DNA of 41,041 bases from a virus, in IMG/VR virus record IMGVR_UViG_3300022602_000198, positions 1 to 41,041 of that record. The stretch is one strand, 5' to 3'. The notes under the pieces were generated by a model, which saw nothing but the letters and a program-made list of their open reading frames with translations, did no database searches and was not told the origin of the DNA. The translations under genes were made by a program, and so were the position numbers. Positions 9,038-40,144 of the stretch are shown in pieces (position 1 is the first letter of the stretch; the number at the start of each line of letters is the position of its first letter).

Positions 9038-9198
9038 TGTGTTACCTCATCTGCAGGTAGGGGTGTGTTGCCTTCGGCTACCCATTTAAGATATTGCTGG
9101 TAGTCTGTGTTGTCAGGATTTGCAGGAATAGCTGTATTGCCATTAAGAATTACTCCAGCAATTTCTTTTCCATCAGGGGACATAAATAATTTATACAT
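9034..9198 (-). CDS. Small fibre-associated protein (54 aa), paralogue of 10313-10486
   Basis: ATG at 9196-9198, TGA at 9034-9036, overlapping the next gene by ATGA. The C-terminal half (AIPANPDNTDYQQYLKWVAE, then GNTPLPADE) matches that of the 57-aa gene downstream of the other fibre. This 'P-x-N-x-DY-x-x-YL-x-W-x-A-x-GN' motif is common at the ends of tail-fibre assembly proteins. It sits between two fibre genes, so I read it as a dedicated chaperone or fibre-tip cap for the 369-aa fibre. Confidence 0.7.
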   Translation of the reverse strand: MYKLFMSPDGKEIAGVILNGNTAIPANPDNTDYQQYLKWVAEGNTPLPADEVTQ

Positions 9199-9199
9199 A

Positions 9200-11583: not shown

Positions 11584-12312
11584 TTATAAAACTACCCAGC
11601 GTTGACCGCTGGAAACTGTTACTGTTGTGCCGGATGTTACGCTAACTGGACCTACCGACATTGCATTAAAGCCTGTGCCAACGGTGTAATTGCTTGTTAT
11701 TGAATCACTGTTAACCACCAAGCCGTTGGTAGAGACCATTTCTTGTGATTGTAACTCACCGGTAGATGGTTTGTAAAGGTATTTAGCGTTGCTAGTATAT
11801 ATGGTTGTTGGATATCCTGTTGTGGTATCTACAAACAAAGGATATCGGTTTGTTGCTGTACTGGTGTCATTAACAATACTGGCTGAACTGCCATTAGTAC
11901 CGCTATAACCACTGATGCCTGAGAAACCACTGTAACCACTAATGCCTGAGAAACCGCTATAACCACTAATGCCTGAGAAGCCACTGAAACCTGAGAAACC
12001 ACTAAAACCAGAAAAGCCAGAAAAACCGCTATATCCACTCACACCACCAGTACCGTTAGCGCCGCTATATCCACTATACCCGCTGACACCATCGGAGCCA
12101 CTATGGCCACTGTAACCGCTATAACCGCTAATGCCGCTGTAACCACTAAGCCCAGCTAAGTTTTTTACTACGCCAGAGGTATTTTTATAATACAAATACC
12201 CATCGGCAATGTTTATTGCCAGTTCACCGGTAGTTAAATTGGCGGCCGAAGGCTGAGCACCCGGTGTGGTGCTGTGATATAGCGATATAGGGGTAAAACC
12301 GGTTTGGGCCAT
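11584..12312 (-). CDS. Collagen-like tail fibre (242 aa)
   Basis: The N-terminal domain (residues 1-55, with TTGELAINIADGYLYYKN) is a common virion-attachment start. Residues about 56-146 are Gly-X-Y triplets with almost only Ser in the Y position (GYS, GIS, GFS), a collagen-like shaft. The C-terminal domain (about 147-242) ends VTVTVSSGQRWVVL and is clearly homologous to the end of the 896-aa fibre (same IYTSNAKYLYKPSTGELQ segment). Probably trimeric. It starts 3 bp after the glycosyltransferase gene at 12316, an unusual junction between fibre and sugar-transfer genes. Confidence 0.85.
   Translation of the reverse strand: MAQTGFTPISLYHSTTPGAQPSAANLTTGELAINIADGYLYYKNTSGVVKNLAGLSGYSGISGYSGYSGHSGSDGVSGYSGYSGANGTGGVSGYSGFSGFSGFSGFSGFSGFSGISGYSGFSGISGYSGFSGISGYSGTNGSSASIVNDTSTATNRYPLFVDTTTGYPTTIYTSNAKYLYKPSTGELQSQEMVSTNGLVVNSDSITSNYTVGTGFNAMSVGPVSVTSGTTVTVSSGQRWVVL
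11890..12145 (-). repeat. Collagen-coding nucleotide repeats of the 242-aa fibre
   Basis: Degenerate 9- and 18-bp tandem repeats encoding Gly-X-Ser triplets, minus strand. They contain the word GCATTAGT twice in coding phase, unrelated to the promoters. Confidence 0.8.
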
Positions 12313-14966: not shown

Positions 14967-14975
14967 ATTATAGCA
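14967..14975 (-). promoter_or_regulatory. Candidate extended -10 element before the glycosyltransferase genes
   Basis: TGC followed by TATAAT (minus strand), a perfect extended -10 for host sigma70. It overlaps the stop codon of the 896-aa fibre and ends 30 bp before the 408-aa gene, leaving a leader of about 23 nt that holds GGGAG. No -35 box is evident, as allowed for extended -10 promoters. The overlap with coding sequence means it may be accidental. Confidence 0.35.
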
Positions 14976-17658
14976 CTACCCAGCGACTTCCACTTGGTAC
15001 TGTAACAGTGACGCCAGAACTAACTGTAACTGGGCCAACCGATGATGCTCCGTACCCTGACGGTATGGAATAGGTTACTGACACTGTCAAATTGTTTAAT
15101 ACTAAACCGTTGCTTGCCAACAACTCTGAAGCCTGCAGCTCGCCAGTTGATGGTTTAAATAAATGCTTAGCGTTACTGGTATAAATTGTACTAGCAGTAC
15201 CACTGGTTGCTGTTACCGCAACAGGATAAATGTAGCTTGCTGTAGCAACGTCGTTACTGATCGAGATGCTAGATGCAGAGCTGCCAGAGTAGCCAGAAAT
15301 ACCAGAGAAGCCACTGTAGCCAGAGATACCAGATCCGCTGTAACCAGAAATGCCAGAACCGCTGTAACCGCTGATACCAGAGTATCCACTGATACCGGAG
15401 AATCCACTGTATCCACTAATACCGGAGTATCCACTATAGCCGCTAATACCGCTGTAACCACTGATACCGGAGTATCCACTATAGCCGCTAATACCGCTGT
15501 AACCGCTGATACCACTGTAGCCACTGATACCGGAGTATCCACTGTAACCACTGATACCGGAGAAACCGCCGATACCACTGTAGCCACTGATACCAGAAAA
15601 ACCACTGTAGCCGCTTATACCACTTCCGGAGTAGCCTGAAATACCAGAATAGCCAGAGAGGCCGCTATAACCACTATAACCACTATAACCGCTTATACCG
15701 CTTCCAGAGTAACCTGAGAATCCGCTATAGCCCGATATACCGCTACTACCTGTTGCTCCAGAGATGCCTGAGAAACCACTGTATCCGGAGATACCGCTAT
15801 AGCCCGATGTGCCGTTATTACCACTGTATCCGCTATAACCTGATGTGCCAGAATAGCCAGATGTTCCAATACCGCTGTAACCAGAAAAGCCACTATATCC
15901 TGAGATACCGCTGCTACCAGTTGCGCCAGAAATGCCTGAGAAGCCACTGTATCCAGAAATGCCACTGTAACCGCTTATACCGCTGTAACCAGAGATGCCA
16001 GAAAAACCGCTATAACCCGATACGCCAGACCCGCTGTAGCCAGAAATGCCTGAGAAGCCACTGTAACCAGAAATGCCAGAAAAACCGCTATAACCCGATA
16101 CGCCAGATCCACTGTAACCAGAAATGCCTGAGAAGCCACTGTAGCCACTAGTACCGCTGTAACCGGATATTCCAGAGATTCCTGAACCACCGTTTAGTCC
16201 AGAGTAGCCGGAAAAACCGCTGTAACCAGATATACCAGAATATCCAGAAAAACCAGAAATGCCGTTTGCAACCGCAAAAATAATTTGCTGATTGTTAGCA
16301 AATCCGGTTGTGCCAGTTCCAGAAGATGAGACTAGTGAAACCGGAATTGTCCAATAGCTAGATAGGTTTGTTGGTGTTCCAGTAATTGCCCAAGTTTGTT
16401 GGTTTGCGCTATTGGTTTGATCTTGTATAACAACTTCTTCAGTTTTTTGAAGTAAAGCCAAAAATACACTGATATCTACGCCATTAGCAGCAAGTTTGCT
16501 AACGTTTAATTGCGTTGCGCTAGTTTGGGTTGCGTTATTCCACAGTATGTAATCTGTGCCAGGATCTCCACTGGTTGCTGTGGTATTGGCTTTGTAATAG
16601 TAGTAATTACTTGATATACCGCTTGCACCAGAAAAACCGCTATAACCAGAAACACCAGATCCGCTATAGCCAGAAATACCGCTGTAACCGCTGATACCGG
16701 AAAAGCCGCTATAACCTGAAATACCGGAAAAGCCACTGTAACCGCTAATACCGGAAAAGCCACTGTAGCCTGATATACCAGATACGCCACTGTAACCAGA
16801 AATGCCAGAAAAACCGCTGTAGCCTGATATACCAGATACGCCACTGTAACCGCTGATACCGGATACGCCACTGTAACCGCTGATACCGGATACGCCACTG
16901 TATCCTGAGATACCAGACCAACCACTATAGCCACTGTATCCTGAGATACCAGATCCGGAATAGCCAGATATGCCTGAGAAGCCAGAGAGGCCAGAAACAC
17001 CGCTATAACCGCTTATGCCGCTATAGCCAGAAAAACCAGAAACTCCGCTGTAACCAGAGGTGCCAGAAATACCTGACCAGCCGCTGTAACCAGAATAGCC
17101 TGATATGCCGGATCCGGAATAGCCTGATATACCTGAGAAACCAGAAAGACCAGAAACACCGCTATAACCAGAATAACCCGATATACCACTGTATCCAGAA
17201 ATGCCAGAAAAACCTGACGTGCCACTATAACCAGAAATGCCTGAACCACTGTAACCACTTTTACCGCTATAACCGCTAAAACCACTAAAACCACTAAAAC
17301 CAGATTGGCCAGAAAATCCAGAAAAACCTGAATATCCCGAAGTACCTTTTACATTACCAGCGTTAACTGTTGAGCCATTGGTATTGACAAGAATTAAATC
17401 GCCATTGCTGTCAATATATGCACTGGTAAAACCTGGTATTGGGCCAGTTACAGATGTTGTTCCATCACTGTAATAAAAAATTAAATCATATGTTACCGGA
17501 TCTAACACCACGTTGGTAATAAATTTACCGGGCGTAACAGCGTTAGCAATCAGTGCGATGGCTACTTGTTTTGTAACACCATGTTGTACTAGTACTGTTA
17601 CCTCATCGCCATTAACAGTATTGGCAACGGGTAACTGTGTTATCGACTGATCGGCCAT
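14968..17658 (-). CDS. Large collagen-like tail fibre (896 aa)
   Basis: Five parts are visible: an N-terminal head (1-104, starting ADQSITQLPVANTVNGDEVT) that probably attaches to the virion; a Gly-X-Ser collagen-like shaft (about 105-348); a non-collagen central domain (about 349-465, with TWAITGTPTNLSSYWTIPVS); a second shaft (about 466-793); and a C-terminal domain (about 794-896) closely related to that of the 242-aa fibre (SNAKHLFKPSTGEL, ending RWVVL). The triplets use Tyr, Phe or Ile at X and Ser at Y, without proline at X, unusual for a stable collagen helix. Ser side chains offer dense potential modification sites, and glycosyltransferase genes follow immediately. It starts 3 bp before the previous gene's stop and is the longest fibre of the virion. 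Confidence 0.85.
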   Translation of the reverse strand: MADQSITQLPVANTVNGDEVTVLVQHGVTKQVAIALIANAVTPGKFITNVVLDPVTYDLIFYYSDGTTSVTGPIPGFTSAYIDSNGDLILVNTNGSTVNAGNVKGTSGYSGFSGFSGQSGFSGFSGFSGYSGKSGYSGSGISGYSGTSGFSGISGYSGISGYSGYSGVSGLSGFSGISGYSGSGISGYSGYSGWSGISGTSGYSGVSGFSGYSGISGYSGVSGLSGFSGISGYSGSGISGYSGYSGWSGISGYSGVSGISGYSGVSGISGYSGVSGISGYSGFSGISGYSGVSGISGYSGFSGISGYSGFSGISGYSGFSGISGYSGISGYSGSGVSGYSGFSGASGISSNYYYYKANTTATSGDPGTDYILWNNATQTSATQLNVSKLAANGVDISVFLALLQKTEEVVIQDQTNSANQQTWAITGTPTNLSSYWTIPVSLVSSSGTGTTGFANNQQIIFAVANGISGFSGYSGISGYSGFSGYSGLNGGSGISGISGYSGTSGYSGFSGISGYSGSGVSGYSGFSGISGYSGFSGISGYSGSGVSGYSGFSGISGYSGISGYSGISGYSGFSGISGATGSSGISGYSGFSGYSGIGTSGYSGTSGYSGYSGNNGTSGYSGISGYSGFSGISGATGSSGISGYSGFSGYSGSGISGYSGYSGYSGLSGYSGISGYSGSGISGYSGFSGISGYSGIGGFSGISGYSGYSGISGYSGISGYSGISGYSGYSGISGYSGISGYSGYSGISGYSGFSGISGYSGISGYSGSGISGYSGSGISGYSGFSGISGYSGSSASSISISNDVATASYIYPVAVTATSGTASTIYTSNAKHLFKPSTGELQASELLASNGLVLNNLTVSVTYSIPSGYGASSVGPVTVSSGVTVTVPSGSRWVVL
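15280..16260 (-). repeat. Second collagen-coding repeat tract of the 896-aa fibre
   Basis: About 1 kb of tandem degenerate 9- and 18-bp units that encode Gly-Tyr-Ser, Gly-Ile-Ser and Gly-Phe-Ser. Several longer blocks are nearly identical at the nucleotide level (for example around 15,940, 16,045 and 16,115), which favours slippage or recombination and so length variation of the fibre shaft. Confidence 0.8.
16615..17345 (-). repeat. First collagen-coding repeat tract of the 896-aa fibre
   Basis: About 0.73 kb of the same Gly-X-Ser coding repeats, separated from the other tract by a unique segment of about 350 bp. Blocks around 16,760 and 16,820 are near-identical. Confidence 0.8.
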
Positions 17659-30474: not shown

Positions 30475-30533
30475 AAGAAATCCACGTTTGTGACGTTGTT
30501 TTAAAAATAAATGCGGTGAAGACGGGGTTGTCA

Positions 30534-30688
30534 ATGTATTTTCAACTCCATTTGAGAATATTAAATTTATTTTTATTTATTTTTAAAATAAGTTAAATAA
30601 ACATCGGATACACCGGATACCCCGCAGTGCCTTGATTTCATTGAAGAAAATTTACAAAAATTGTGCGGGGTTGACGGGGAAGACGATG
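30534..30688. repeat. 155-bp duplicated intergenic element, copy 1
   Basis: Aligned with 37609-37764. Left part AT-rich; then 41 bp identical (30594-30634), a 29-nt non-conserved stretch, and 26 bp identical (30663-30688). The arms CCCCGCA (from 30620) and TGCGGGG (from 30664) flank a 37-nt segment in both copies, so an inverted repeat of fixed loop size is conserved while its loop sequence differs. Confidence 0.8.
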
Positions 30689-30712
30689 AAGACGGGGAAG
30701 ACGACGTTTGTT

Positions 30713-30721
30713 TGTGGATAA
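30713..30721. other. Perfect DnaA-box sequence
   Basis: TGTGGATAA, the reverse complement of TTATCCACA. It is 25 bp after the 155-bp element and next to AT-rich DNA. A single 9-mer can occur by chance. Confidence 0.35.
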
Positions 30722-30970
30722 CTCAGGTTTTAATGTTGTAAAAAAGAGACACTTTTTAGGCAGAATTTTTCAAAAAAAAATTTACAAACTTGCGTTTTGA
30801 CCGGGTCCCCGGCCCGGGGGGAGGGGGTCTCCTTTTAAGGGGTATCGACTTTAAAACAAACCCCCTCAATGCCTGCCCGAAAGCATGCTTATATACCGCA
30901 TTGCGAGATTACATTCCGCATTATGAAATGCTAGCGCGCTGCGTTAGTGGGCACTCACTCACTTAGGCTA

Positions 30971-31186
30971 TGCACCACAATGGTGCACTGCGTTGCAGCG
31001 CAGCATGATAGTGAGTACTTACTGACGATGCACCAGGTTGGTGCACTACATTGCGGTGCAGCATAGCAGTATGCCAATGCACCAGTATGGTGCACAGGAT
31101 GGGGGCTAGCATTATGTTAGTGAGCGCATACTAACATAGAGGCAGGGCAGCAGGCCGGCGGTTAGGCAATGCACCAATATGGTGCA
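30971..31186. repeat. Four identical-arm palindromes TGCACCA-N3-TGGTGCA
   Basis: Copies at 30971-30987, 31029-31045, 31078-31094 and 31170-31186. All have perfect 7-bp arms; the 3-nt centres are CAA, GGT, GTA and ATA. Start-to-start spacings are 58, 49 and 92 bp. Likely operators for a dimeric DNA-binding protein; the binding protein is unknown. A transcribed-RNA hairpin role is also possible. Confidence 0.75.
31113..31138. repeat. Inverted repeat with 9-bp arms
   Basis: Arms TATGTTAGT (31113-31121) and ACTAACATA (31130-31138) with an 8-nt loop, between the third and fourth TGCACCA palindromes. Possible operator. Confidence 0.5.
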
Positions 31187-31257
31187 TGAGCTGGTCGCGG
31201 CAATATGGCGGGACGCGTACGCGATGAGGCGGCATTGAGGGTGGGCGGAATACTGTT

Positions 31258-31298
31258 AGATTGTGCAGCGCGGGATATACCACAAGATCCCACAATCT
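31258..31298. repeat. Compound hairpin in the early leader region
   Basis: Outer arms AGATTGTG (31258-31265) and CACAATCT (31291-31298) enclose inner arms GGGAT and ATCCC, with a bulge between them. It lies 35 bp upstream of the early promoter -35. Confidence 0.4.
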
Positions 31299-31309
31299 CC
31301 CACTAAGGG

Positions 31310-31362
31310 TAAACCCTATTAGGGTTTAAAGTTTGAAAACCTAGGGTTTTCCCTAATATACA
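31310..31362 (+). promoter_or_regulatory. Early sigma70-like promoter with two operator palindromes
   Basis: TTGAAA (31333-31338), 18-bp spacer, TATACA (31357-31362); start about 31369. A perfect 19-bp palindrome, TAAACCCTATTAGGGTTTA (31310-31328), sits just upstream of the -35, and GAAAACCTAGGGTTTTC (31335-31351) fills the spacer. The two palindromes share AAACC/GGTTT halves, so one dimeric regulator could bind both. Transcript leads to the GP88-like gene at 31436 with an AGAGGA ribosome site. Confidence 0.55.
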
Positions 31363-31435
31363 TAGCGTATAGATAGCCGTTATATTGTGTATATGGCAGC
31401 AATTAAGCAGCCATTACATAAGAGGATCTAACATT

Positions 31436-32089
31436 ATGAATACTATCAAACTATCGAAGACAAGCAAACTAGACGGCATTATGTCATGGAGCTTGCAAGC
31501 ATTAGACACTTGTCCAGGCAGCAAGGCCGAAGGCGGCGGCCTAGTGCCAGCATGTCAAGGCTGCTATGCCACAACAGGGAATTATAGATTTAAGAATGTC
31601 AAAGCGCCGCGCGAATTCAATCGCGAAGATTGGCAGCGCGCCGAATGGGTTCGCGATATGGTTCAGGCGCTGGATTCGTCCCGTTACTTTCGTTGGCTAG
31701 ATTCAGGCGATCTATATAGTGTAGATCTCGCTCGCAAGGTTTACGAAGTAATGGCCGCGACACCATGGGTTAAGCATTGGTTACCTACTAGAATGTATAA
31801 GTTTGCCAAGTTTGCCGATGTATTGGCGGCAATGGAGGCGCTGCCCAATGTAGTAGTAAGGCGCTCTAGTGATTCAGTAAGCGGCGAGATTGTAAGCGGC
31901 GCGCACTCATCAACCATTATAAGCAGCGCGGAGCAGCTGCCAAGCGGCGCGACATTGTGCCGCGCGTATGAGCATGGCGGCACTTGTAACGGCTGCCGCG
32001 CATGCTATGACAAGGCCGCGCCAATTATTGCTTATATGGCGCATGGCAAAAGCATGGCCAAGGTAATACGTATCATGGCGGCGGCTTAA
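31436..32089 (+). CDS. GP88-like cysteine-motif protein (217 aa)
   Basis: Start chosen at ATG 31436, preceded by AGAGGA 9 bases upstream; a longer frame begins at 31385 inside the leader. The N-terminus opens NTIKLSKTSKLDGIMSWSLQ, followed by the TCP-x12-CQGCYATTG cysteine cluster (C26, C40, C43), the RWLDSGDLYSVDLARKVYEV segment and a C-terminal C-x-GGTCNGCRACYD cluster. This is the pattern of the mycobacteriophage gp88 family; its function is not established, though the cysteines could bind metal or an Fe-S cluster. First gene of the early operon. Confidence 0.75.
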   Translation: MNTIKLSKTSKLDGIMSWSLQALDTCPGSKAEGGGLVPACQGCYATTGNYRFKNVKAPREFNREDWQRAEWVRDMVQALDSSRYFRWLDSGDLYSVDLARKVYEVMAATPWVKHWLPTRMYKFAKFADVLAAMEALPNVVVRRSSDSVSGEIVSGAHSSTIISSAEQLPSGATLCRAYEHGGTCNGCRACYDKAAPIIAYMAHGKSMAKVIRIMAAA

Positions 32090-32091
32090 TC

Positions 32092-32247
32092 ATGGAGGCG
32101 CGTTATATTTTTGTGGTCTTTTACCGGCACCATGGCGAAGATTACAGCGCCGTATTTCAGGGCATGCGCAAGGCGAAGGCCTTCGCGCGTGTCACCGGCG
32201 GCAGAGTAGAAGCACAATTGTCCAATGTATTTAATAGGGAGGTTTAA
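32092..32247 (+). CDS. Small early protein (51 aa)
   Basis: ATG two bases after the previous stop. Product begins EARYIFVVFYRHHGEDYSAV, then KAKAFARVTGGRVEAQLSN. Basic and compact. Unrecognised. Tight packing and a GGGAGG ribosome site for the following gene within its last codons support expression. Confidence 0.6.
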   Translation: MEARYIFVVFYRHHGEDYSAVFQGMRKAKAFARVTGGRVEAQLSNVFNREV

Positions 32248-32249
32248 TC

Positions 32250-32351
32250 ATGCTTAGAATTATGTACTCTTATGTTGTGGATCTATTAGGGTATATCCTA
32301 ATATCATTTATTTGGTGCGGCGTTATTCTTGCACTATTCGATTGTTTATAA
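32250..32351 (+). CDS. Small membrane peptide (33 aa)
   Basis: One predicted transmembrane helix (VDLLGYILISFIWCGVILAL, residues about 10-29). Preceded by GGGAGG. Unknown function; early small membrane peptides often act on host envelope functions, but no evidence here. Confidence 0.55.
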   Translation: MLRIMYSYVVDLLGYILISFIWCGVILALFDCL

Positions 32352-32362
32352 GGGGTTTGATT

Positions 32363-32527
32363 ATGAGAAATTATAGAGTAGTGACTAGGCAATATACTTA
32401 TTTAGTGGCTAATGTTATGGCTAATAGTAAAGAAGAGGCCGGCAAAATCGCCTTAGAATCTGATGCTTTAGACTGGGATTGGTGCGATTATGGCGATTCA
32501 GAAATTGAGTTAGTAGAGGAGGATTAA
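32363..32527 (+). CDS. Small early protein (54 aa)
   Basis: Start at ATG 32363 (AAGGGG upstream) in preference to a longer frame from 32312 that overlaps the membrane peptide. RNYRVVTRQYTYLVANVMAN then EEAGKIALESDALDWDWCDY; acidic C-terminus. The 'V-x-A-x-S-x-EEA' pattern is seen in small phage early proteins of unknown function. Confidence 0.65.
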   Translation: MRNYRVVTRQYTYLVANVMANSKEEAGKIALESDALDWDWCDYGDSEIELVEED

Positions 32528-32529
32528 TT

Positions 32530-32673
32530 ATGTACTACTGCAATGAATTTTGGTTTGATACATACGAAGAGGCGCGCGAATACGCCAATTTTCTAACGCG
32601 TCACGCCGGCATATATCGCGCTATTTTTACCCGCGCTGAAATGATCGCGCATAATATGGAGGCATTATCATGA
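32530..32673 (+). CDS. Small early protein (47 aa)
   Basis: ATG 32530 to TGA 32671-32673, overlapping the next gene by ATGA. YYCNEFWFDTYEEAREYANF begins the product, which ends RAEMIAHNMEALS. A helical, charged small protein; unrecognised. Confidence 0.6.
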   Translation: MYYCNEFWFDTYEEAREYANFLTRHAGIYRAIFTRAEMIAHNMEALS

Positions 32674-32924
32674 GATCAATCCAATCACTAGCCGCGCAAG
32701 CCGGTAGAGAAGCCCGCGCCAATGGTTTACCATGCGATCCCAATGGCGGCACGTATCGCACCCGTACAGATGACGAGCAAGCCCAATATGAGAGCGATCA
32801 AGCATGGTGGGCTCGTCAATCTATTATTAAGTGTTACGGCTCAATGGATAATTATTGCCGCATTTTGCGCCGCCAGCATGGCGTACACGATCACCCAGTA
32901 AAACCACAGGAGCATACAAAATGA
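32670..32924 (+). CDS. Early protein (84 aa)
   Basis: Charged helical protein with SLAAQAGREARANGLPCDPN at the N-terminus and DDEQAQYESDQAWWARQSI in the middle. The 'GREARANGLPC-x-P' start recalls small phage proteins with a 'G-x-A-x-x-x-G-x-P-x-x-P' motif. ATGA-coupled to the genes on both sides. Function unknown. Confidence 0.65.
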   Translation: MRSIQSLAAQAGREARANGLPCDPNGGTYRTRTDDEQAQYESDQAWWARQSIIKCYGSMDNYCRILRRQHGVHDHPVKPQEHTK

Positions 32925-33226
32925 TTGATTTAAACGATATTGAGATTATTGAAGGCGATACAACGGCCACAACCCAGCAATACTATGAATCCATTCAGAA
33001 GGCCATCAACACCGGCTTATGGGGTTTACAGGGCTCTTATGGCCGCACAATGATGGCGGCTATTAACGATGGCTATTGTATGCTAGGCCGCAATGAAGCG
33101 CACGACTACTACGGCAACCATATACCAAGCCGCGACCAAGTGCAAGCCGGTACAAAGGGATCATTTGATTATGTCGCGGCAGAGTGCGGCGAAGGATGGG
33201 CACAACATATGAGCGAGGTGAAATAA
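32921..33226 (+). CDS. Early hypothetical protein (101 aa)
   Basis: Start at ATG 32921 with CAGGAG upstream; overlaps the previous stop. Contains IEGDTTATTQQYYESIQKAI, then GLWGLQGSYGRTMMAAINDG and AHDYYGNHIPSRDQVQAGTK. No known family. TAATG-coupled to the next gene. Confidence 0.65.
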   Translation: MIDLNDIEIIEGDTTATTQQYYESIQKAINTGLWGLQGSYGRTMMAAINDGYCMLGRNEAHDYYGNHIPSRDQVQAGTKGSFDYVAAECGEGWAQHMSEVK

Positions 33227-33402
33227 TGAATGTAGATAAAATTAAAGCAATGGTATCGGATCTTAATTACCAGTATTCTAATTTAGTAGAAGCCTCGGTA
33301 CAAGAGGCAATAGATGGGCAACCCGATGCCGAATGCGACACCATGTTTGCAGAGATTCAAACCTTAGTTAAATTGATATACAAAGAATTGGAGGAGGTAT
33401 GA
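33226..33402 (+). CDS. Small acidic helical protein (58 aa)
   Basis: NVDKIKAMVSDLNYQYSNLV and an acidic second half, ending LVKLIYKELEEV; likely all helix, partly coiled coil. TAATG start at 33226, ending GGAGGAGGTATGATG, where its stop and the next start overlap. Unrecognised. Confidence 0.6.
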   Translation: MNVDKIKAMVSDLNYQYSNLVEASVQEAIDGQPDAECDTMFAEIQTLVKLIYKELEEV

Positions 33403-33650
33403 TGGACAAACTAGAGCAAGCCTATACCATGGATTTATTGGCGCGTCTTACTGAATCGATCGAGACATACCTAGACGATGATCGCTGGGATGGCATAGAC
33501 GCGATGCACAAGGAGATTAAAGAAGCCAATAAGCTAGTACGCAAATACTATAAACGTATGCGTGCACAACAGGCAGCAGAAGAGCAAGACGCGAAGCAGA
33601 CTGAATGGTTACGAAAGGCCAATGCAGCAATTAGAGAAGGGAGCGTATGA
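33399..33650 (+). CDS. Small helical early protein (83 aa)
   Basis: MMDKLEQAYTMDLLARLTES then IDAMHKEIKEANKLVRKYYK and MRAQQAAEEQDAKQTEWLRK. Charged and helical throughout. Two adjacent ATG codons (33399, 33402) follow GGAGG; either may be used. Unrecognised. Confidence 0.6.
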   Translation: MMDKLEQAYTMDLLARLTESIETYLDDDRWDGIDAMHKEIKEANKLVRKYYKRMRAQQAAEEQDAKQTEWLRKANAAIREGSV

Positions 33651-33790
33651 TGACTAGATATACCATCACCATGGAGATTACAGTCGCGGACACAGACGCG
33701 CCGCCGAGCGACTGGATGCCAGTATCAATTGAGGCATTGATGGAAGACGGCGAGACAATCGACTATTTTGTATGTGAGGAGATTAAATAA
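33647..33790 (+). CDS. Small acidic early protein (46-47 aa)
   Basis: ATG at 33647 or 33650, stop TAA at 33788-33790, TAATG with the next gene. TRYTITMEITVADTDAPPSD, then ALMEDGETIDYFVCEEIK: acidic beta-type. Unrecognised. Confidence 0.6.
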   Translation: MMTRYTITMEITVADTDAPPSDWMPVSIEALMEDGETIDYFVCEEIK

Positions 33791-34011
33791 TGAGATACGA
33801 AGTGCAACAAGCTACTATATGCGACGGATGGACAAATACTTGGCATGAGTACGACGATGACAACAACGAAGTACCAATGACCTTCGATACATTCGAGGAG
33901 GCTCTATTGGAGCTAGACGAGTACTTGTACGACATTGAGAAAGCATACAACATGGGAGATATTGATTCACCTGAAGACCGCGACAATTTTAGAATTGTAG
34001 AGGTGAAATAA
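33790..34011 (+). CDS. Small acidic early protein (73 aa)
   Basis: RYEVQQATICDGWTNTWHEY, then FDTFEEALLELDEYLYDIEK and an acidic end. The 'CDGW-x-NTW' segment followed by 'F-x-T-x-x-EA' is common in phage early proteins of unknown function. TAATG-coupled on both sides. Confidence 0.65.
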   Translation: MRYEVQQATICDGWTNTWHEYDDDNNEVPMTFDTFEEALLELDEYLYDIEKAYNMGDIDSPEDRDNFRIVEVK

Positions 34012-34244
34012 TGAAGCGAGAATATACTGTAAATTTATTGGTGCGTCGTTCTGATTCAATTGAACCATGCCAAAAATGCAGCCTCCAATACCAATGCGAT
34101 GCGAATCGCTTAGCATGTACTCAGTTTAGATTTTTTGTAAACACTGGCCGCATGCCAGTCGATAGTGCGCGATATCCAACACGCGAGATTTATATGGATG
34201 TATTTCACAATGAACCAGCAATGACAAGGAGAGCAACATCATGA
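34011..34244 (+). CDS. Cysteine-cluster early protein (77 aa)
   Basis: Residues 20-37 contain CQKCSLQYQCDANRLACTQF, four Cys in a C-x2-C-x6-C-x6-C pattern that could bind zinc. The C-terminal half holds MPVDSARYPTREIYMDVF. Function unknown; ATGA overlap with the following gene. Confidence 0.6.
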   Translation: MKREYTVNLLVRRSDSIEPCQKCSLQYQCDANRLACTQFRFFVNTGRMPVDSARYPTREIYMDVFHNEPAMTRRATS

Positions 34245-34450
34245 GAGTAGGCACAATTTACTATAACAAAAACACCGATACCACCGAAGTTAGATGGTCA
34301 GATAATTTTGTTGTAGACCAATGGATTACTAAAATGGACGTACTAAAAGACGTTCAGGGTATAACATGGATGGCATATGATTATGTACACGACAACCATG
34401 ACAACAAATACAATGGAGACGGGTATATCCCCGAAACATTACAAGGATAA
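34241..34450 (+). CDS. Small early protein (69 aa)
   Basis: RVGTIYYNKNTDTTEVRWSD, then WITKMDVLKDVQGITWMAYD and DNKYNGDGYIPETLQG. A compact beta-alpha type fold by composition; unrecognised. AGGAGAG ribosome site lies upstream of its ATG. Confidence 0.6.
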   Translation: MRVGTIYYNKNTDTTEVRWSDNFVVDQWITKMDVLKDVQGITWMAYDYVHDNHDNKYNGDGYIPETLQG

Positions 34451-34564
34451 ATGATGACACACACAATGAAGTTTAATAATATCAACGAGATGATAGAGTG
34501 GATTGTAGAGAATGAGTTTTACAACCTATTGCCAGTAGACTTAACCATTCATTTAGGAGAATAA
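34451..34564 (+). CDS. Small early protein (37 aa)
   Basis: MMTHTMKFNNINEMIEWIVE and FYNLLPVDLTIHLGE. Small, acidic at the C-terminus. Starts next to the previous stop; GGAGAATAATATG then leads to the next gene. Confidence 0.5.
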   Translation: MMTHTMKFNNINEMIEWIVENEFYNLLPVDLTIHLGE

Positions 34565-34565
34565 T

Positions 34566-34877
34566 ATGTTGCACGAGATCACAATGCGTACTATTGAAGA
34601 TTACTTTCAAAAGCCAACCGATGACATTGACGAGTTAGGTCATATTGACCGAGAGATCAAGCAGCTAGAAAGCAGAGCTCGAGCACTTAAAGCCAGACTG
34701 ATTGAGCGCGGCGTTGGCGTGTATAAAGGTGTACGATTTACCGCCGAAGTGCAACACTATGCACGCGCAACCATTAGCCCCATTTTGGTTAAAGAGTTTG
34801 GCACTACCGACTTTGTCGCGCAGGTAACCCAAGTTAAATCCGTTGATGCTGTTGTAGTTAGAGAAATCGGAGTATAA
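34566..34877 (+). CDS. Early protein with helical N-terminus (103 aa)
   Basis: Residues 14-48 form a charged helix (HIDREIKQLESRARALKARL), then a beta part, VYKGVRFTAEVQHYARATIS and VAQVTQVKSVDAVVVREIGV. It has AGGAG before the ATG. The plan is reminiscent of small nuclease-inhibitor or anti-defence proteins, but nothing diagnostic is seen. Confidence 0.65.
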   Translation: MLHEITMRTIEDYFQKPTDDIDELGHIDREIKQLESRARALKARLIERGVGVYKGVRFTAEVQHYARATISPILVKEFGTTDFVAQVTQVKSVDAVVVREIGV

Positions 34878-34881
34878 TTAA

Positions 34882-35058
34882 ATGCGATTCGTTGGGTTTA
34901 TACTTTTAATCATTGGCGCAAATGCCTATGAACACGATTACTACAATGGAATAGAGGGCATAAGATGGGATACACTTGGCATGGTTATTGTAGGATTTTT
35001 ATTGTTATTCCCGAACTTCATCAGTTTATTCGGGGATAGAAATGTCAAAAGAAAATGA
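34882..35058 (+). CDS. Small membrane protein (58 aa)
   Basis: Two hydrophobic segments: RFVGFILLIIGANAYE (residues about 2-17) and LGMVIVGFLLLFPNFISLF (about 33-51), then a short basic tail. Overlaps the sigma gene by 17 bp in another frame; the sigma ribosome site lies in its last codons. Unknown function. Confidence 0.6.
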   Translation: MRFVGFILLIIGANAYEHDYYNGIEGIRWDTLGMVIVGFLLLFPNFISLFGDRNVKRK

Positions 35059-35617
35059 TTTATTAAGCGACTACCTAAACTCACTATATGGCATTGAACC
35101 ATTGACAACCGAGGAGGAACACGAGCTAGCTGCTCGTATCTCCCAAGGTGATGCACTGGCATTAGACAAACTTATTACCCATAACCTTCGGTTTGTGGTG
35201 TATGTGGTGCGTAAGATGACAGCATGGGCACATGGCAAAGTGCCAGTAGAGGATATGATCGCGATGGGCAATGAAGCGTTATTCAAGGCGGCGCGGCAAT
35301 GGACACCAACCAATAACGCGCGCTTTGCCACCTTTGCAAAATCGTTCATTTTGATGGATGTCAGGCGCAATCTTGACAATACCGCCAATTTGATTCGTTT
35401 GCCTATCAATATCATGGAACAAATTAAGAAACTCAATTACAATGATAGAGTGTTATTTCAGATGCTTGGGCGCAAACCCAAATCGTCAGAATTAGCAAAG
35501 ATCATGGGAATATCGGAATCAAAGGTGCACCAGCTACAAGGGTATATCACACGCGAACCGATATCACTTGATAACATTAACCAAGAAAAATACATTGAGG
35601 AACTTAACGATGATTAA
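35042..35617 (+). CDS. RNA polymerase sigma factor, sigma70-type without region 4 (191 aa)
   Basis: A phage-encoded sigma. Region 1.2/2.1: LSDYLNSLYGIEPLTTEEEH, ELAARISQGDALALDKLITH and NLRFVVYVVRKM; region 2.2-2.4: PVEDMIAMGNEALFKAARQW, NNARFATFAKSFILMDVRRN (the DNA-melting and -10-reading part); region 3: RLPINIMEQIKKLNYNDRVL, KPKSSELAKIMGISESKVHQ and the linker EPISLDNINQE. The protein ends here; a region 4 (the -35 reader and activator contact) is missing, so it would depend on the -10 element and possibly on a partner protein, as in the T4 gp55 situation. It is encoded in the early operon, in place to switch on the bipartite promoters. Confidence 0.88.
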   Translation: MSKENDLLSDYLNSLYGIEPLTTEEEHELAARISQGDALALDKLITHNLRFVVYVVRKMTAWAHGKVPVEDMIAMGNEALFKAARQWTPTNNARFATFAKSFILMDVRRNLDNTANLIRLPINIMEQIKKLNYNDRVLFQMLGRKPKSSELAKIMGISESKVHQLQGYITREPISLDNINQEKYIEELNDD

Positions 35618-35906
35618 ACTGACCGATGAACAACAAAAAGCCTACGACCGCTTTATAAAGGCTAGAAATCGAGTCGGAATTGTAAGAACGGCCAAGCAAT
35701 ACCCGTATGTACCATTAAAGGAAGTAATACAGACAGTTGACCAGGAGCAGTTAGGCCATCCCTTGTTTGAAATAAATATGGAATGGCTGGAGTATTTAGA
35801 GGCATCGCTAGCATGGTGGAAAGTTGAACCATCGTTCAGGCATGACGAGCGTATGCGTATGAGCCGGGGAGATTACGGCGTAGAGGATTCTTGGGAGGAT
35901 CGATAA
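35610..35906 (+). CDS. Early hypothetical protein (98 aa)
   Basis: Starts at ATG 35610, overlapping the sigma stop by 8 bp; a longer frame from 35568 lies inside the sigma gene. KLTDEQQKAYDRFIKARNRV begins a helical N-terminus; ENMEWLEYLEASLAWW-type helices follow; the acidic tail has GDYGVEDSWEDR. Unrecognised, and coupled to the sigma and methyltransferase genes. Confidence 0.65.
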   Translation: MIKLTDEQQKAYDRFIKARNRVGIVRTAKQYPYVPLKEVIQTVDQEQLGHPLFEINMEWLEYLEASLAWWKVEPSFRHDERMRMSRGDYGVEDSWEDR

Positions 35907-37051
35907 TGAAATATTTATCAGTATGTAGTGGAGTTGAAGCTGCTACAGTGGCTTGGCATGATTTAGGCTGGCAACCAGTAGCATTTTCGGAGATTGAAAA
36001 GTTTCCAAGTGAAGTATTAGCGCATCATTATCCTAATGTGCCTAATGTGGGCGATATGACTAAATATAAGGAGTGGAATTTAAATGACTCAATTAACCTT
36101 CTCGTTGGAGGAACACCATGTCAATCCTTCTCCGTCGCAGGACTCAGAAAAGGGCTTGAAGACCCAAGGGGTAACCTCATGCTCACCTATGTTGGAATTC
36201 TTGACAAGTTTAGACCCAAGTGGTGCGTTTGGGAAAACGTGCCAGGTGTCCTCAGTTCAAACGGAGGACGGGATTTTGGTTCCTTCCTCGGGGCGTTGGT
36301 CGAACTCGGGTATGGGTTCGCATATCGGGTGCTTGACGCTCAAAACTTTGGAGTACCCCAGCGCCGCCGTCGAGTCTTCGTTGTTGGATGTCTTGGAGAC
36401 TGGATCAGTCCATCAAAGGTTCTTTTTGAGCCCGACTGCTTGCTCGGGGATTCTAAGAAGAGCCGCAGTAAGAAACAAGGTACTCCCGCCTTTACTTCAA
36501 GCAGCTTTGGAGGCTACAGTGAGGGCGTCGGAACAGTCAGAGCCAGCGGTGGAGATCTCGGTGGCGGATCAGAAACCCTAATTGCTACACCAGACTTAGA
36601 GCACACCATTGATACAACTGGCACGCAAGGTGTTGCGTATGGGTTTACCCAATGCGACGCAGCCCGTGACATTGGTGATGATGTCAGCCCAACATTACGC
36701 TCGGGTGGTGATGGTGGTTATCCTAACCACGCTGTTGCATACTCGATTCGTGAAGACGCTAAAGCAAACAACTTCTCTGCCACAGCGTTAGAGGTGACAC
36801 CAGCGCTCCAGGCGTTACGCCCTTCGGTTCAATCACACCATGCTCAAACTTTCATAGCACAGACCATGGCAGTGCGTCGCCTAACACCAGTGGAGTGTGA
36901 ACGCTTGCAAGGCTTTCCCGACAACTACACCAACATCCCATGGCGTAAAAAAGACGAGGCACCAGACGGCCCACGCTACAAGGCAATGGGTAACTCCATG
37001 GCGGTTCCTGTGATGAAATGGATTGGACAAAGAATAGAGGAGATGGTATGA
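35906..37051 (+). CDS. DNA (cytosine-5) methyltransferase (381 aa)
   Basis: Methylates cytosine C5 in host-modified or phage DNA, probably to escape restriction. The start at ATG 35906 is supported by GGGAGG and TAATG coupling. Motif I: YLSVCSGVEAATVAWHDLGW; motif IV with catalytic Cys72: GGTPCQSFSVAG; motif VI with E110-N-V: WENVPGVL; motif VIII: QRRRRVFVVG; motif IX: VRRLTPVECERLQGFP; motif X: KAMGNSMAVPVMKW. The target-recognition region (about 165-330) is variable and its sequence specificity cannot be predicted. No restriction partner is seen. The gene contains a nested reading frame (see 36084). Confidence 0.93.
   Translation: MKYLSVCSGVEAATVAWHDLGWQPVAFSEIEKFPSEVLAHHYPNVPNVGDMTKYKEWNLNDSINLLVGGTPCQSFSVAGLRKGLEDPRGNLMLTYVGILDKFRPKWCVWENVPGVLSSNGGRDFGSFLGALVELGYGFAYRVLDAQNFGVPQRRRRVFVVGCLGDWISPSKVLFEPDCLLGDSKKSRSKKQGTPAFTSSSFGGYSEGVGTVRASGGDLGGGSETLIATPDLEHTIDTTGTQGVAYGFTQCDAARDIGDDVSPTLRSGGDGGYPNHAVAYSIREDAKANNFSATALEVTPALQALRPSVQSHHAQTFIAQTMAVRRLTPVECERLQGFPDNYTNIPWRKKDEAPDGPRYKAMGNSMAVPVMKWIGQRIEEMV
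36084..36581 (+). CDS. Nested reading frame inside the methyltransferase gene (165 aa)
   Basis: A 165-codon frame read in a different phase from the methyltransferase over motifs IV to about VIII. Its ATG is preceded by AAGGAG with 10-nt spacing. The product, TQLTFSLEEHHVNPSPSQDS, ending RRAAVRNKVLPPLLQAALEA and AVEISVADQKP, has the FFLSPTACSGILRRA segment that I recognise from short phage proteins reported separately in databases. Either it is a real overprinted protein or a shadow of conserved methyltransferase DNA. The clear ribosome site and lack of stops favour the first. Confidence 0.45.
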   Translation: MTQLTFSLEEHHVNPSPSQDSEKGLKTQGVTSCSPMLEFLTSLDPSGAFGKTCQVSSVQTEDGILVPSSGRWSNSGMGSHIGCLTLKTLEYPSAAVESSLLDVLETGSVHQRFFLSPTACSGILRRAAVRNKVLPPLLQAALEATVRASEQSEPAVEISVADQKP

Positions 37052-37242
37052 CGATAATACCTACAGACATTTATGACAAAGAGGGCAATATGCTCCGCAT
37101 TGAATTCCATGACAGCAAGGGTGATTTTGCCTTTCAGGTGTTATGGGATCCAAGAGACGAGCAAACCAGTACTAATTGTGAGGAGTTGCGTAAGTATGCC
37201 TACCGGATGGCTGACCAATTAGGCTATGAGGTGAACAAATGA
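37048..37242 (+). CDS. Small early protein (64 aa)
   Basis: Start at ATG 37048 (ATGA overlap with the methyltransferase); a longer frame from 37018 overlaps its end. TIIPTDIYDKEGNMLRIEFH, ending YRMADQLGYEVNK. Beta-alpha type; unrecognised. Confidence 0.6.
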   Translation: MTIIPTDIYDKEGNMLRIEFHDSKGDFAFQVLWDPRDEQTSTNCEELRKYAYRMADQLGYEVNK

Positions 37243-37340
37243 CCAAGCAGCAACGCTCAGACCTATTGATCAAATGGCTGCTTGTTTTTGCAGCAGCTTA
37301 CTTTCTTGGGCATATTGCCCTATATCTCGTGAGGTTATAA
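37239..37340 (+). CDS. Small membrane peptide (33 aa)
   Basis: One transmembrane helix, WLLVFAAAYFLGHIALYL (residues about 13-30), after a basic N-terminus. ATGA and TAATG overlaps with both neighbours support it as part of the operon. Confidence 0.55.
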   Translation: MTKQQRSDLLIKWLLVFAAAYFLGHIALYLVRL

Positions 37341-37474
37341 TGAAGACACTTATCTGTGCAGTTTGGTTATATGCCGTTTCTTTACCGGTTTTTGCTGATG
37401 TGGTGGTTATTCAGACTCCAACCGGTCCTCAAACCACTTGCATCGTTTTAAAAGGGTTAATTAGCTGCTCATAA
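37340..37474 (+). CDS. Small secreted/periplasmic protein (44 aa)
   Basis: Signal peptide MKTLICAVWLYAVSLPVFA (cut after Ala19, before DVVV) followed by a 25-residue mature part with two cysteines (TTC at about 34 and SC at 43) that could be disulfide-bonded. TAATG-coupled to the membrane peptide before it. An exported small protein from the early operon suggests a role at the envelope, such as superinfection exclusion; that role is inference. Confidence 0.65.
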   Translation: MKTLICAVWLYAVSLPVFADVVVIQTPTGPQTTCIVLKGLISCS

Positions 37475-37498
37475 TCGACTCTGTCCCCATTTAAATCG

Positions 37499-37603
37499 TT
37501 ATAAATCAACGACTTGCGGGGTATCCGATGTTTGTGCGGTGTTTGAAATGAAAAATGCTGAAAAAACCACTTATAAATCAACGACTTGCGGGGTATCCGA
37601 TGT
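37499..37603. repeat. 33-bp direct repeats with TATCCGATG words
   Basis: Two identical 33-bp copies at 37499-37531 and 37571-37603, 72 bp apart. Each contains TATCCGATG (37522-37530, 37594-37602); a third word abuts the second copy (37603-37611) and inverted copies lie at 37678-37686 and 30602-30610. The words look like iterons. Confidence 0.75.
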
Positions 37604-37702
37604 ATCCGATGTATTTTCAAGTCATTCCATATAATATTTATTTTTTATTTTTTATTTTTTAAATAAACATAAATAAACATCGGATACACCGGATACCCCG
37701 CA
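37587..37702. repeat. 26-bp inverted repeat around an AT-rich loop
   Basis: Arms 37587-37612 and 37677-37702 match at 25 of 26 positions. The 64-nt loop is almost all A and T. The right arm's CCCCGCA can also pair with TGCGGGG at 37740-37746, so two mutually exclusive structures exist. Confidence 0.75.
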
Positions 37703-37764
37703 GTGCCTTGTTTTTAAAGGAGATTTTTTGGGAAAATCGTGCGGGGTTGACGGGGAAGACGATG
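37609..37764. repeat. 155-bp duplicated intergenic element, copy 2
   Basis: Partner of 30534-30688, in the same orientation. Identical parts: 37670-37710 (41 bp) and 37739-37764 (26 bp). It lies at the upstream border of the primase promoter, just as copy 1 lies beside promoter E. Confidence 0.8.
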
Positions 37765-37787: not shown

Positions 37788-37802
37788 TTTCACAATGTGA
37801 AA
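37788..37802. promoter_or_regulatory. Palindrome TTTCACAATGTGAAA at the primase promoter
   Basis: Perfect 7-bp arms with a 1-nt centre. It occupies the place where TAGGGCG stands in the late promoters (first 7 bases are 16 bp upstream of TGCATTAGT). Candidate operator or activator site. Confidence 0.5.
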
Positions 37803-37840: not shown

Positions 37841-40144
37841 ATGATCAAACCGACACCACTACCAGTCCAGTTCAACAGCATACCGATGGAACTCAAGCGC
37901 ATCCCGCGTTGGGTACTTTGGAAGTTTGTTGAAATTGGCGATGAAAGCAATAAACGCTGGTCAAAGATCCCCACACAGGCATCCGGCCAACCTGCCAGCT
38001 CAACCAATCCGGATACATGGACAGACTTTCTGACTGTCCAGCATGAGTATGAAGCCAACCCAAGCAAATACGCAGGCATCGGATTTGTTTTCTCCGGTGA
38101 CGACGATATTATTGGTGTCGATCTGGATGACTGCTACGACCACCTCACCGGCGGTTTCATAAATGCTGCATCGCAGCAATTAGCCTCCAAAATCGATGGC
38201 TATATGGAGATTAGCCCATCAGGCACAGGCGTCAAAATATTCACACGCGCCAATCTGCCAGCCAGCCACGTTGACCATGCCATCGGTTTGGAGATATACC
38301 CCAAATCGCGATTCTTTACAGTCACTGGGCACCACCTTAGCGGCGCTTTACCGAGCGACGTTCAAGACCTGACGACTATCGTGCCACCACGCACGATAAC
38401 TCGGACAGGGGATGCCTTTGCTGACTATGTGCCACCACTCGAAGACTATGACGTGGCGCGGGTCGAGACTGAGATCCTGGCCAATCTACCCCAAGAGATG
38501 TACGGGTATGACGATTGGCTTAAAGTCGGCATGATCATGCATCACCAGTTTGATGGCGACGTTGAAGCGTTAGAAGCATGGGATCGTTGGAGCTCACAAG
38601 GACCGGACTACCACACCGATGCATGTGCCAGCAAGTGGCGAACATTCAAAGGCTCTGGTGCGACATTGCGCTCGCTCTTATTTATTGTCAATCAGGCCAA
38701 ACAGGTCGAGGCGCTCAAACGCGGCGAGATTATCCTTGATCAAAATGTCATGAATCAGGCGCGTGTATTCCTAGACAATACGTACTCCAGTGAAGAAGGC
38801 TATCGTCTTGTGCACTATGCTAGTGACTTTTATATGCATGCCAAGACACACTACGAGATTATCGAAGAGGCCACGATTCGCTCTGAGCTGTACAAGCTCT
38901 TAGACAAATGTCAAAAGACTGGCAAGCAAGGCGCTCTTTTGCCGTTCAATCCAAACCCAGCGTCTGTCTCTGCAGCCCTTGATGCTACTAAATCCATTGT
39001 GCACTTGCCAAACCATGCACATACCAAACCACCGATTTGGTTAGCTGACTATGCTCAGTCCAAACCGGACGCATCTAAATTGATTTCACTGCAAAATGGT
39101 TTATTCCATCTTGAAGACTCAATTTTGCTGCCACACTCACTAGGTTTCTTTACTCAGAACTCATTGCCGTTTGAGTACAACCCACAGGCACAGTGTCCGG
39201 TGTGGATGCAGTTCTTACAATCTGTATGGCCGGACGATCAAGAGTCGATTGTCTGCCTGCAAGAGATGTTTGGTTATATCATCTCAGGCGATACTCGCCA
39301 ACAGAAGTTTTTTAATATCATCGGCCCACGCCGTTCAGGCAAGGGAACTATTAACAAAGTGTTAGTCGAGCTATTGGGGCAACACAACACTGTCGCACCT
39401 GAATTAGGAGAACTTTGTGATACCTTTGGTCTGCAGCCTTGGCTGGGTAAGCTCCTCGCTTCTTTTACTGATGCAAGAGCACCTGACCGCAATCGATCTG
39501 CTGTTGTATCTCAGTTGCTCCGTATTGTGGGCGGCGATACCATTACTGTCAACCGAAAAAACAAAGAGTCTTGGAATGGTTATCTCCCTACTCGCATTGT
39601 TATTTACTCTAACGAGGTTATTCAGCTAACGGAAAACTCCAACGCGCTCACCGGCCGTATGATTATGTTTAAGATGACCAAGTCGTTTTGGAGTAAGGAA
39701 GACACCGATCTGTCATTCAAGCTGCGTGGTGAATTGTCCGGTATCTTTAACTGGGCAATGGAAGGACTCAAGCGCCGCTTAGCCCGTGGCGGTTACTTCA
39801 TTCAGCCTCAGTCTGGTAAAGAGCTTTTAGACCTTGCTGCTAAATCAGGCAATCCGTTCTTGGAGTTTATGGAAGACACACTAGTACTAGATCCAATGGC
39901 ATCGGTTAAGAAGTCTGAGCTGTATGAGTGCTGGAAACACTGGGCGATTAAGAAGGGCATGCCGCCTGGCACCGAGCAGGCGTTCAAGCGTCGCTTTGCA
40001 GCGGCAACACAGGAGAGCGGCATTCAGGCACAAGAGACTCGAGTGAACGGAGAGCGTCTAAATCTATTTGCTGGTGCAAAGTTTACTGAAAGGGCGCAAC
40101 GCCACGTGGATCAGCAGGTAATTTTTGAAGAGGACATTTACTAA
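37841..40144 (+). CDS. Primase-helicase, primase-polymerase plus SF3 helicase (767 aa)
   Basis: Starts phage DNA replication. The N-terminal 200 residues are a primase-polymerase-type domain: D94-L-D96-D97 (GVDLDDCYD), SPSGTGVKIF, LEIYPKSRFFTVTG and WVLWKF near the start. About 210-300 is a PriCT-like region (YGYDDWLKVGMIMHHQ, ACASKWRTFKGSGATLRSLL). The C-terminal half is a D5-like superfamily 3 helicase: Walker A GPRRSGKGT (495-503), acidic LASFTDARA (about 540-548) and IVIYSNEV as the sensor Asn. Length fits phage/plasmid primase-helicases of this type. The TATCCGATG/inverted-repeat region just upstream makes an origin-proximal initiator plausible. It has its own promoter, apart from the early operon. 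Confidence 0.88.
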   Translation: MIKPTPLPVQFNSIPMELKRIPRWVLWKFVEIGDESNKRWSKIPTQASGQPASSTNPDTWTDFLTVQHEYEANPSKYAGIGFVFSGDDDIIGVDLDDCYDHLTGGFINAASQQLASKIDGYMEISPSGTGVKIFTRANLPASHVDHAIGLEIYPKSRFFTVTGHHLSGALPSDVQDLTTIVPPRTITRTGDAFADYVPPLEDYDVARVETEILANLPQEMYGYDDWLKVGMIMHHQFDGDVEALEAWDRWSSQGPDYHTDACASKWRTFKGSGATLRSLLFIVNQAKQVEALKRGEIILDQNVMNQARVFLDNTYSSEEGYRLVHYASDFYMHAKTHYEIIEEATIRSELYKLLDKCQKTGKQGALLPFNPNPASVSAALDATKSIVHLPNHAHTKPPIWLADYAQSKPDASKLISLQNGLFHLEDSILLPHSLGFFTQNSLPFEYNPQAQCPVWMQFLQSVWPDDQESIVCLQEMFGYIISGDTRQQKFFNIIGPRRSGKGTINKVLVELLGQHNTVAPELGELCDTFGLQPWLGKLLASFTDARAPDRNRSAVVSQLLRIVGGDTITVNRKNKESWNGYLPTRIVIYSNEVIQLTENSNALTGRMIMFKMTKSFWSKEDTDLSFKLRGELSGIFNWAMEGLKRRLARGGYFIQPQSGKELLDLAAKSGNPFLEFMEDTLVLDPMASVKKSELYECWKHWAIKKGMPPGTEQAFKRRFAAATQESGIQAQETRVNGERLNLFAGAKFTERAQRHVDQQVIFEEDIY

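Follow-up and report, generated by a model that had tools for sequence, protein, structure and literature searches.

Two related elements on either side of the early operon

The DNA examined here is a linear, 41,041-base record of a freshwater phage (IMG/VR IMGVR_UViG_3300022602_000198; below, the window is this stretch at its full length). Its leftward late genes, which encode capsid, portal, terminase, lysozyme and glycosyltransferases, extend up to ~30.5 kb, from where a rightward early operon leads to a primase-helicase gene (37841-40144). Two copies of a non-coding element bracket the early operon. Element A (30512-30706) lies at the late/early divergence, with the leftward late genes on one side and the rightward early operon on the other, and element B (37576-37764) is directly upstream of the primase-helicase gene, which is of the P4 family. 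Here we characterize this pair of elements, which we predict to be a bipartite replication origin.

The initial annotation of this DNA had described two copies in the same orientation, at 30534-30688 and 37609-37764, and these align with 82% identity over 158 columns (E ~1e-37). The identical blocks of 41 bp (30594-30634 and 37670-37710) and 26 bp (30663-30688 and 37739-37764) that it had noted are indeed present, as is the constant 37-nt interval from CCCCGCA to TGCGGGG. The variable stretch between the blocks is also there, at 28 nt rather than the 29 nt given, and is not unrelated between the copies, since 16 of its 28 positions match, compared with 9.3 in shuffles (p 0.003). Similarly, the 155-bp repeat is real, and is only part of a bigger element with further arms and iterons. 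What had been seen as conserved arms around a variable loop corresponds to two groups of iterons, inner and outer, that lie to the same side of a core. The suggestion of selection on the arms, rather than simple recent copying, fits our findings, with the amendment that the main symmetry is that of 9-bp iterons around an AT-rich core and not that of a 37-nt loop.

Both elements follow one plan, in which an AT-rich core lies between tandem 9-bp iterons that point inward (TATCCGATG, AAGACGGGG, TTGACGGGG) and are inverted on the opposite side. In B, delimited by repeat comparison and predicted to be the primase-proximal replication origin, a plus-strand left arm of TGCGGGG-TATCCGATG-TATCCGATG (37587-37611), evident from the sequence and from a pattern scan, faces the near-perfect inverted CATCGGATA-CACCGGATA-CCCCGCA (37678-37702) across the core (37608-37678). 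This right arm, on the minus strand, comprises the inverted iterons TATCCGATG and TATCCGGTG plus CCCCGCA, and is followed on the plus strand by an outer iteron group, TGCGGGG-TTGACGGGG-AAGACGATG (37740-37764). A motif scan placed a perfect consensus site for integration host factor (IHF), AATCAACGACTTG, at 37576-37588 (plus strand). Repeat comparison and the same scan revealed a partial third copy at 37499-37531 (plus strand), consisting of an IHF consensus (37504-37516), TGCGGGG and one TATCCGATG. The window thus has two perfect IHF sites, one ahead of the left arm of B and the other ahead of the partial copy.

Element A, the distal site, is predicted from repeat comparison and synteny to be a replication origin or a site akin to the crr of phage P4, which is discussed below. 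Its left arm (30512-30536) has diverged and carries, in the 9-bp register, the iterons AAGACGGGG and TTGTCAATG (30519-30536, plus strand). Beyond the core (30531-30601) are a minus-strand right arm with the inverted iterons TATCCGATG and TATCCGGTG plus CCCCGCA (30602-30626) and a plus-strand outer group, TGCGGGG-TTGACGGGG-AAGACGATG-AAGACGGGG-AAGACGACG (30664-30706), the last two iterons of which (30689-30706) are additional to the set in B. The motif scan also detected a near-consensus IHF site with one mismatch, AATCAAGGCACTG, inside the 37-nt spacer of A (30625-30637, minus strand); the spacer may therefore connect the inner with the outer iterons through a bend made by IHF. When duplex stability was calculated over all 41 kb, the cores of B and A ranked as the least and second least stable 70-bp stretches (z 4.3 and 4.1; the next, 3.0), and both are predicted unwinding elements. 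Tandem iterons adjoining such an AT-rich element, the general mark of an iteron origin, are thus found at both sites.

Conservation of the pair and turnover of its iterons

A search with the primase identified 80 related IMG/VR loci (61-99% identity; 61-73% for the non-identical relatives), here numbered with an L, and two contigs of betaproteobacterial metagenome-assembled genomes. Pairs were mapped by BLAST of each locus against itself, given that automatic detection with coding and GC filters missed real pairs. The second copy was found 5-13 kb upstream of the primase-proximal copy, and the pair is present in ~38-39 of the 45 loci whose sequence extends 7 kb or more upstream of the primase: in 34 within the locus, weakly in L079, and in L012, L013, L095 and L101 on a full-contig search. 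The remaining six (L086, L093, L098, L099, L100 and L106) end before or near the position of the distal copy in their closest relatives. Two near-identical contigs that span both places (L007 and L009) also have the pair. Relatives with one copy or none, which the initial annotation had set against its own proposal, were not encountered in any contig clearly reaching the expected place.

The order of the region is conserved: leftward terL, g29196 and g30151, then A, the rightward early genes, a sigma gene and g37018, then B and the primase gene, with the proximal element separated from the primase gene by some genes in L065, L077, L084 and L087. A pattern scan for an AT core with inverted tandem 9-mers, which is blind to the similarity of A and B, detected only these elements in the 33 loci with mapped pairs, and this pattern alone picks up the distal element independently in about a dozen loci. 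Of 64 elements, 54 contain repeats at a lag of 9 (481 windows compared with 1.1 in shuffles); among other lags the multiple 18 stands out, with few at 11 and none else.

The iteron word itself differs by lineage, being TATCCGATG in the window, TTGCAGGGG in L017, TCTGCTGGG in L038, TTGCTAGGG in L044, TAGTCACAG in L053, TTGCGGGGG in L062 and TAGTACTAG in L065. Within a genome, proximal and distal elements share iterons (mean 0.63; above 0.2 in 29 of 32 genomes), at a level reached by none of 20000 permutations. Between phages with 66-85% identical primases, sharing is 0.01-0.05.

Other motifs recur around the elements. The IHF consensus WATCAANNNNTTR is found beside 30 of 50 elements, with 51 sites compared with 2.2 in shuffles. 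The palindrome TTTCACAATGTGAAA, located next to B in the window (37788-37802), is strongly enriched beside the elements in relatives; its general form, TTTCAYANNRTGAAA, has 24 matches beside 50 elements (shuffle mean, none), and these are 130 times denser there than elsewhere in the loci. A second palindrome, TGCACCANNNTGGTGCA, has four perfect copies within 216 bp (30971-31186) between A and the early operon, against a whole-window expectation of 0.02, and many relatives have one to three copies of it, most of them some hundreds of bases to the right of the distal element. It is likely an operator or partition-type site for some protein. Fur-box-like sequences (GAGAATGATTATCATT) are found near the elements in L017 (3704-3720), L044, L051, L060, L074, L089 and L090, and are absent from the window; they hint that the early region might be controlled by iron in those relatives. 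We also considered DnaA boxes, two of the window's only three adjoining the copies, and dropped the idea because enrichment in relatives is just 2-fold and the box at B is part of the conserved palindrome.

The primase-helicase as candidate initiator

The candidate initiator is the product of the plus-strand gene next to B, which profile searches indicate is a fused primase and superfamily 3 (SF3) helicase (PriCT_2, D5_N, DUF5906). It scores 157.5 bits with the NCBIfam model for P4-family primases (TIGR01613; cut-off 108.7) and is 21% identical to P4 alpha over 282 aa (E 1e-15). The N-terminal part matches PrimPol-type primases in PDB (6a9w and 7ola, the latter at 4e-40 and presumably a SaPI5 protein).

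At the C-terminus, residues 648-767 (39782-40141, plus strand) are modelled as a winged helix, the predicted iteron reader, with a predicted local distance difference test score (pLDDT) of ~90 over the domain. An invariant FKRRF helix is followed by a variable two-stranded wing. A search of PDB with the sequence profile of this region gave zero matches, and a model of the full-length protein, of low quality in the helicase core (mean pLDDT 71), was not used. In fold comparisons, the best matches of the C-terminal model include the RFX1 DNA-binding domain (1dp7, Z 11.0), and the origin-binding domain of phage P4 (1ka8) aligns over 84 of 100 residues (Z 8.2, root-mean-square deviation 3.0). As modelled, the domain is of the same fold as the P4 origin-binding domain, a likeness that is not proof of DNA binding. 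In RFX1, the wing and not the helix touches the major groove (PMC8998557), and a similar mode of contact would fit an invariant helix and a variable wing in the phage domain.

When iteron distance between genomes was corrected for overall primase distance, residues 716-767 gave the top correlation (partial r 0.31, with a maximum-window permutation threshold of 0.197 in a 24-residue scan). The second-best block was 591-640, and the N-terminus and helicase core contributed little. Residues 716-767 ranked first in every run that left out one clade, as well as with one genome per 85% cluster. For the sigma factor and six other neighbouring proteins, the correlation with iteron distance was 0.14 or less. 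A seeming association of residue 741 (N or P) with G at iteron position 6 is no more than anecdotal. Taken from these sequence comparisons, the initiator and the iterons appear to evolve together.

Some neighbouring genes also deserve mention. The sigma-70-like early gene (35042-35617) encodes regions 1.2, 2 and 3, with region 4 not found, and is kept between A and B in nearly all relatives. A C-5 cytosine methyltransferase gene (35891-37051) is shared by the window with the L010-L016 group and was found in none of the other relatives compared; it thus seems to be cargo carried in the early operon. Two late open reading frames (ORFs; 14968-17658 and 11584-12312) are composed of 9/27-nt repeats and probably encode Gly-rich, collagen-like tail or fibre proteins. 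Searches for Rfam families and tRNAs returned zero of either, and a DNA search of phage records gave only scattered gene-level matches.

A predicted bipartite origin and its alternatives

We propose, with a probability that we put at roughly 0.8, that A and B together form a bipartite origin of replication like P4 ori/crr, to which the primase-helicase encoded by the phage itself binds. Most likely, as far as comparison of sequences allows, the P4 plan is represented here by a variant that is made of two homologous sites and kept by the members of an uncultured phage family. We found no report of origins for this phage group in the open-access literature, most subscription journals being outside the search. 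Among the roles put forward in the initial annotation, that of a replication origin has strong comparative evidence.

The resemblance to P4 is found at several levels. In its annotated sequence record, ori (9086-9809) and crr (4291-4590) are ~4.8 kb apart and have 8-bp type-1 repeats in common, with crr adjoining the alpha gene. Two type-1 repeats in crr are 9 bp apart and have inverted partners across a 35-bp core of 69% AT, similar to the arrangement in A and B. In both phages there are two separate iteron sites, one beside the initiator gene and the other at a divergent region (the requirement in cis is known from P4), and in both the P4-family helicase has a C-terminal winged helix of the origin-binding fold. 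P4 alpha, the winged-helix domain of which binds the repeats, is a TOPRIM primase (PMC4234260), whereas the window primase resembles archaeo-eukaryotic PrimPols; we regard this mismatch as a variant, since the primase type belongs to alpha rather than to the pair of sites. The two sites of the window are also homologous over an extended architecture, while P4 ori and crr have the iterons alone in common, and the window phage is no P4 satellite, as it has capsid, portal and terminase genes of its own.

Two other systems are instructive. The Bacillus phage SPP1 has oriL and oriR, similarly organized, ~13 kb apart and served by one initiator, with the second possibly stalling forks and switching replication to concatemers (PMC6316719). 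These two alike origins, with direct repeats, an AT-rich unwinding element and a single phage initiator (gp38), are reminiscent of A and B. However, oriL sits inside the SPP1 initiator gene, and SPP1 uses a separate initiator, loader and DnaB-type helicase in place of the fused primase-SF3 helicase. In staphylococcal elements, the C-terminal domain of D5-family Rep helicases recognizes iterons (PMC7581432). SaPI and SCCmec elements with Rep proteins of this type share a D5-family helicase and, as predicted here, iteron origins with the window, but have one origin downstream of rep with 5-nt iterons, rather than two upstream sites with 9-bp iterons.

In our model, the primase-helicase would use the wing of the RFX-like winged helix at its C-terminus to bind the 9-bp iterons, and would form hexamers on the inward-facing arms to the left and right of the core. 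The enzyme would then melt the AT-rich core and prime synthesis, with IHF bending the flanking DNA such that inner and outer iterons could work together. A and B may divide the labour in one of two ways: both sites could fire, or one could be the start and the other a partner required in cis or a fork-control site, like P4 crr or SPP1 oriR.

Several observations weigh against this proposal. The GC-skew analysis that the initial annotation had suggested as a check for an origin gave no clean switch at A or B, and conservation of DnaA boxes near the copies was not found in relatives beyond the 2-fold enrichment noted above. The 9-bp architecture was not found in the scanned parts of Proteus RS10pmA and Marinobacter PS6, which are distant and have related primases. 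Most distal copies were first located by similarity to the proximal copy, so within-genome sharing of iterons is biased upward. The link between initiator and iterons is correlational, and in narrow distance bins the C-terminus ranked first, second, fourth and sixth. Covariation of single columns did not single out the C-terminus, and is confounded by phylogeny.

The alternative that survives best, which we nevertheless consider unlikely, is that A and B are operators, at which the primase-helicase or another regulator on the iterons controls early, late and primase promoters, possibly with the intervening DNA looped out. Replication initiators commonly autoregulate, both elements are in intergenic, promoter-bearing regions, and other palindromes (TTTCACANTGTGAAA and TGCACCANNNTGGTGCA) are nearby. 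However, an extremely unstable stretch of 65 bp between inverted arms would be superfluous in an operator, sigma-70 matches in the intergenic region of A are not better than chance, and the covariation points to the replication initiator and not to the sigma factor or the six other neighbours. Operator looping could possibly be a side function of origin sites.

We give very little credence to recombination, resolution or packaging sites, or to a recently duplicated mobile element, even though two direct repeats flanking an operon might suggest them. No integrase or resolvase was found in Pfam, NCBIfam and PHROG scans of the main window proteins (some small ORFs were unscanned, and the linear contig is possibly incomplete). 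In addition, copy orientation varies: the best match of the distal copy is inverted in L016, L058, L067, L068 and L072, a misfit with a conserved deletion site, and the syntenic positions across relatives with 61-73% primase identity argue against a recent insertion. A parS-like partition or incompatibility site, or a structure formed by the RNA of leader transcripts, is just as improbable: iterons occur at centromeres too and the inverted arms could pair in RNA, but neither ParA nor ParB turned up in the window proteins that were scanned and no Rfam match was obtained, a hairpin with a ~65-nt AT loop would be poor, and tandem 9-mers are needless for a hairpin.

While our knowledge of P4 ori/crr and SPP1 oriL/oriR comes from individual model phages, the bipartite plan predicted here is seen in dozens of natural genomes, such that its constrained parts can be read directly. 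The relatives keep the 9-bp spacing, the inverted arms, the unstable core, the IHF site and the position, and the iteron word changes in both sites jointly. These features open to testing some questions that are beyond the reach of any one system: why two sites should be needed, how both stay matched, and how the wing of a winged helix reads an iteron. We suggest, tentatively and with somewhat more doubt than confidence, that this family of uncultured freshwater phages has two complete, matched origins whose 9-bp words turn over by lineage with the RFX-like wing of the initiator. If true, the initiator/origin pairs of the family would form a natural set whose members are orthogonal to one another and could be read as a recognition code, and this orthogonality might be a barrier between co-infecting phages.

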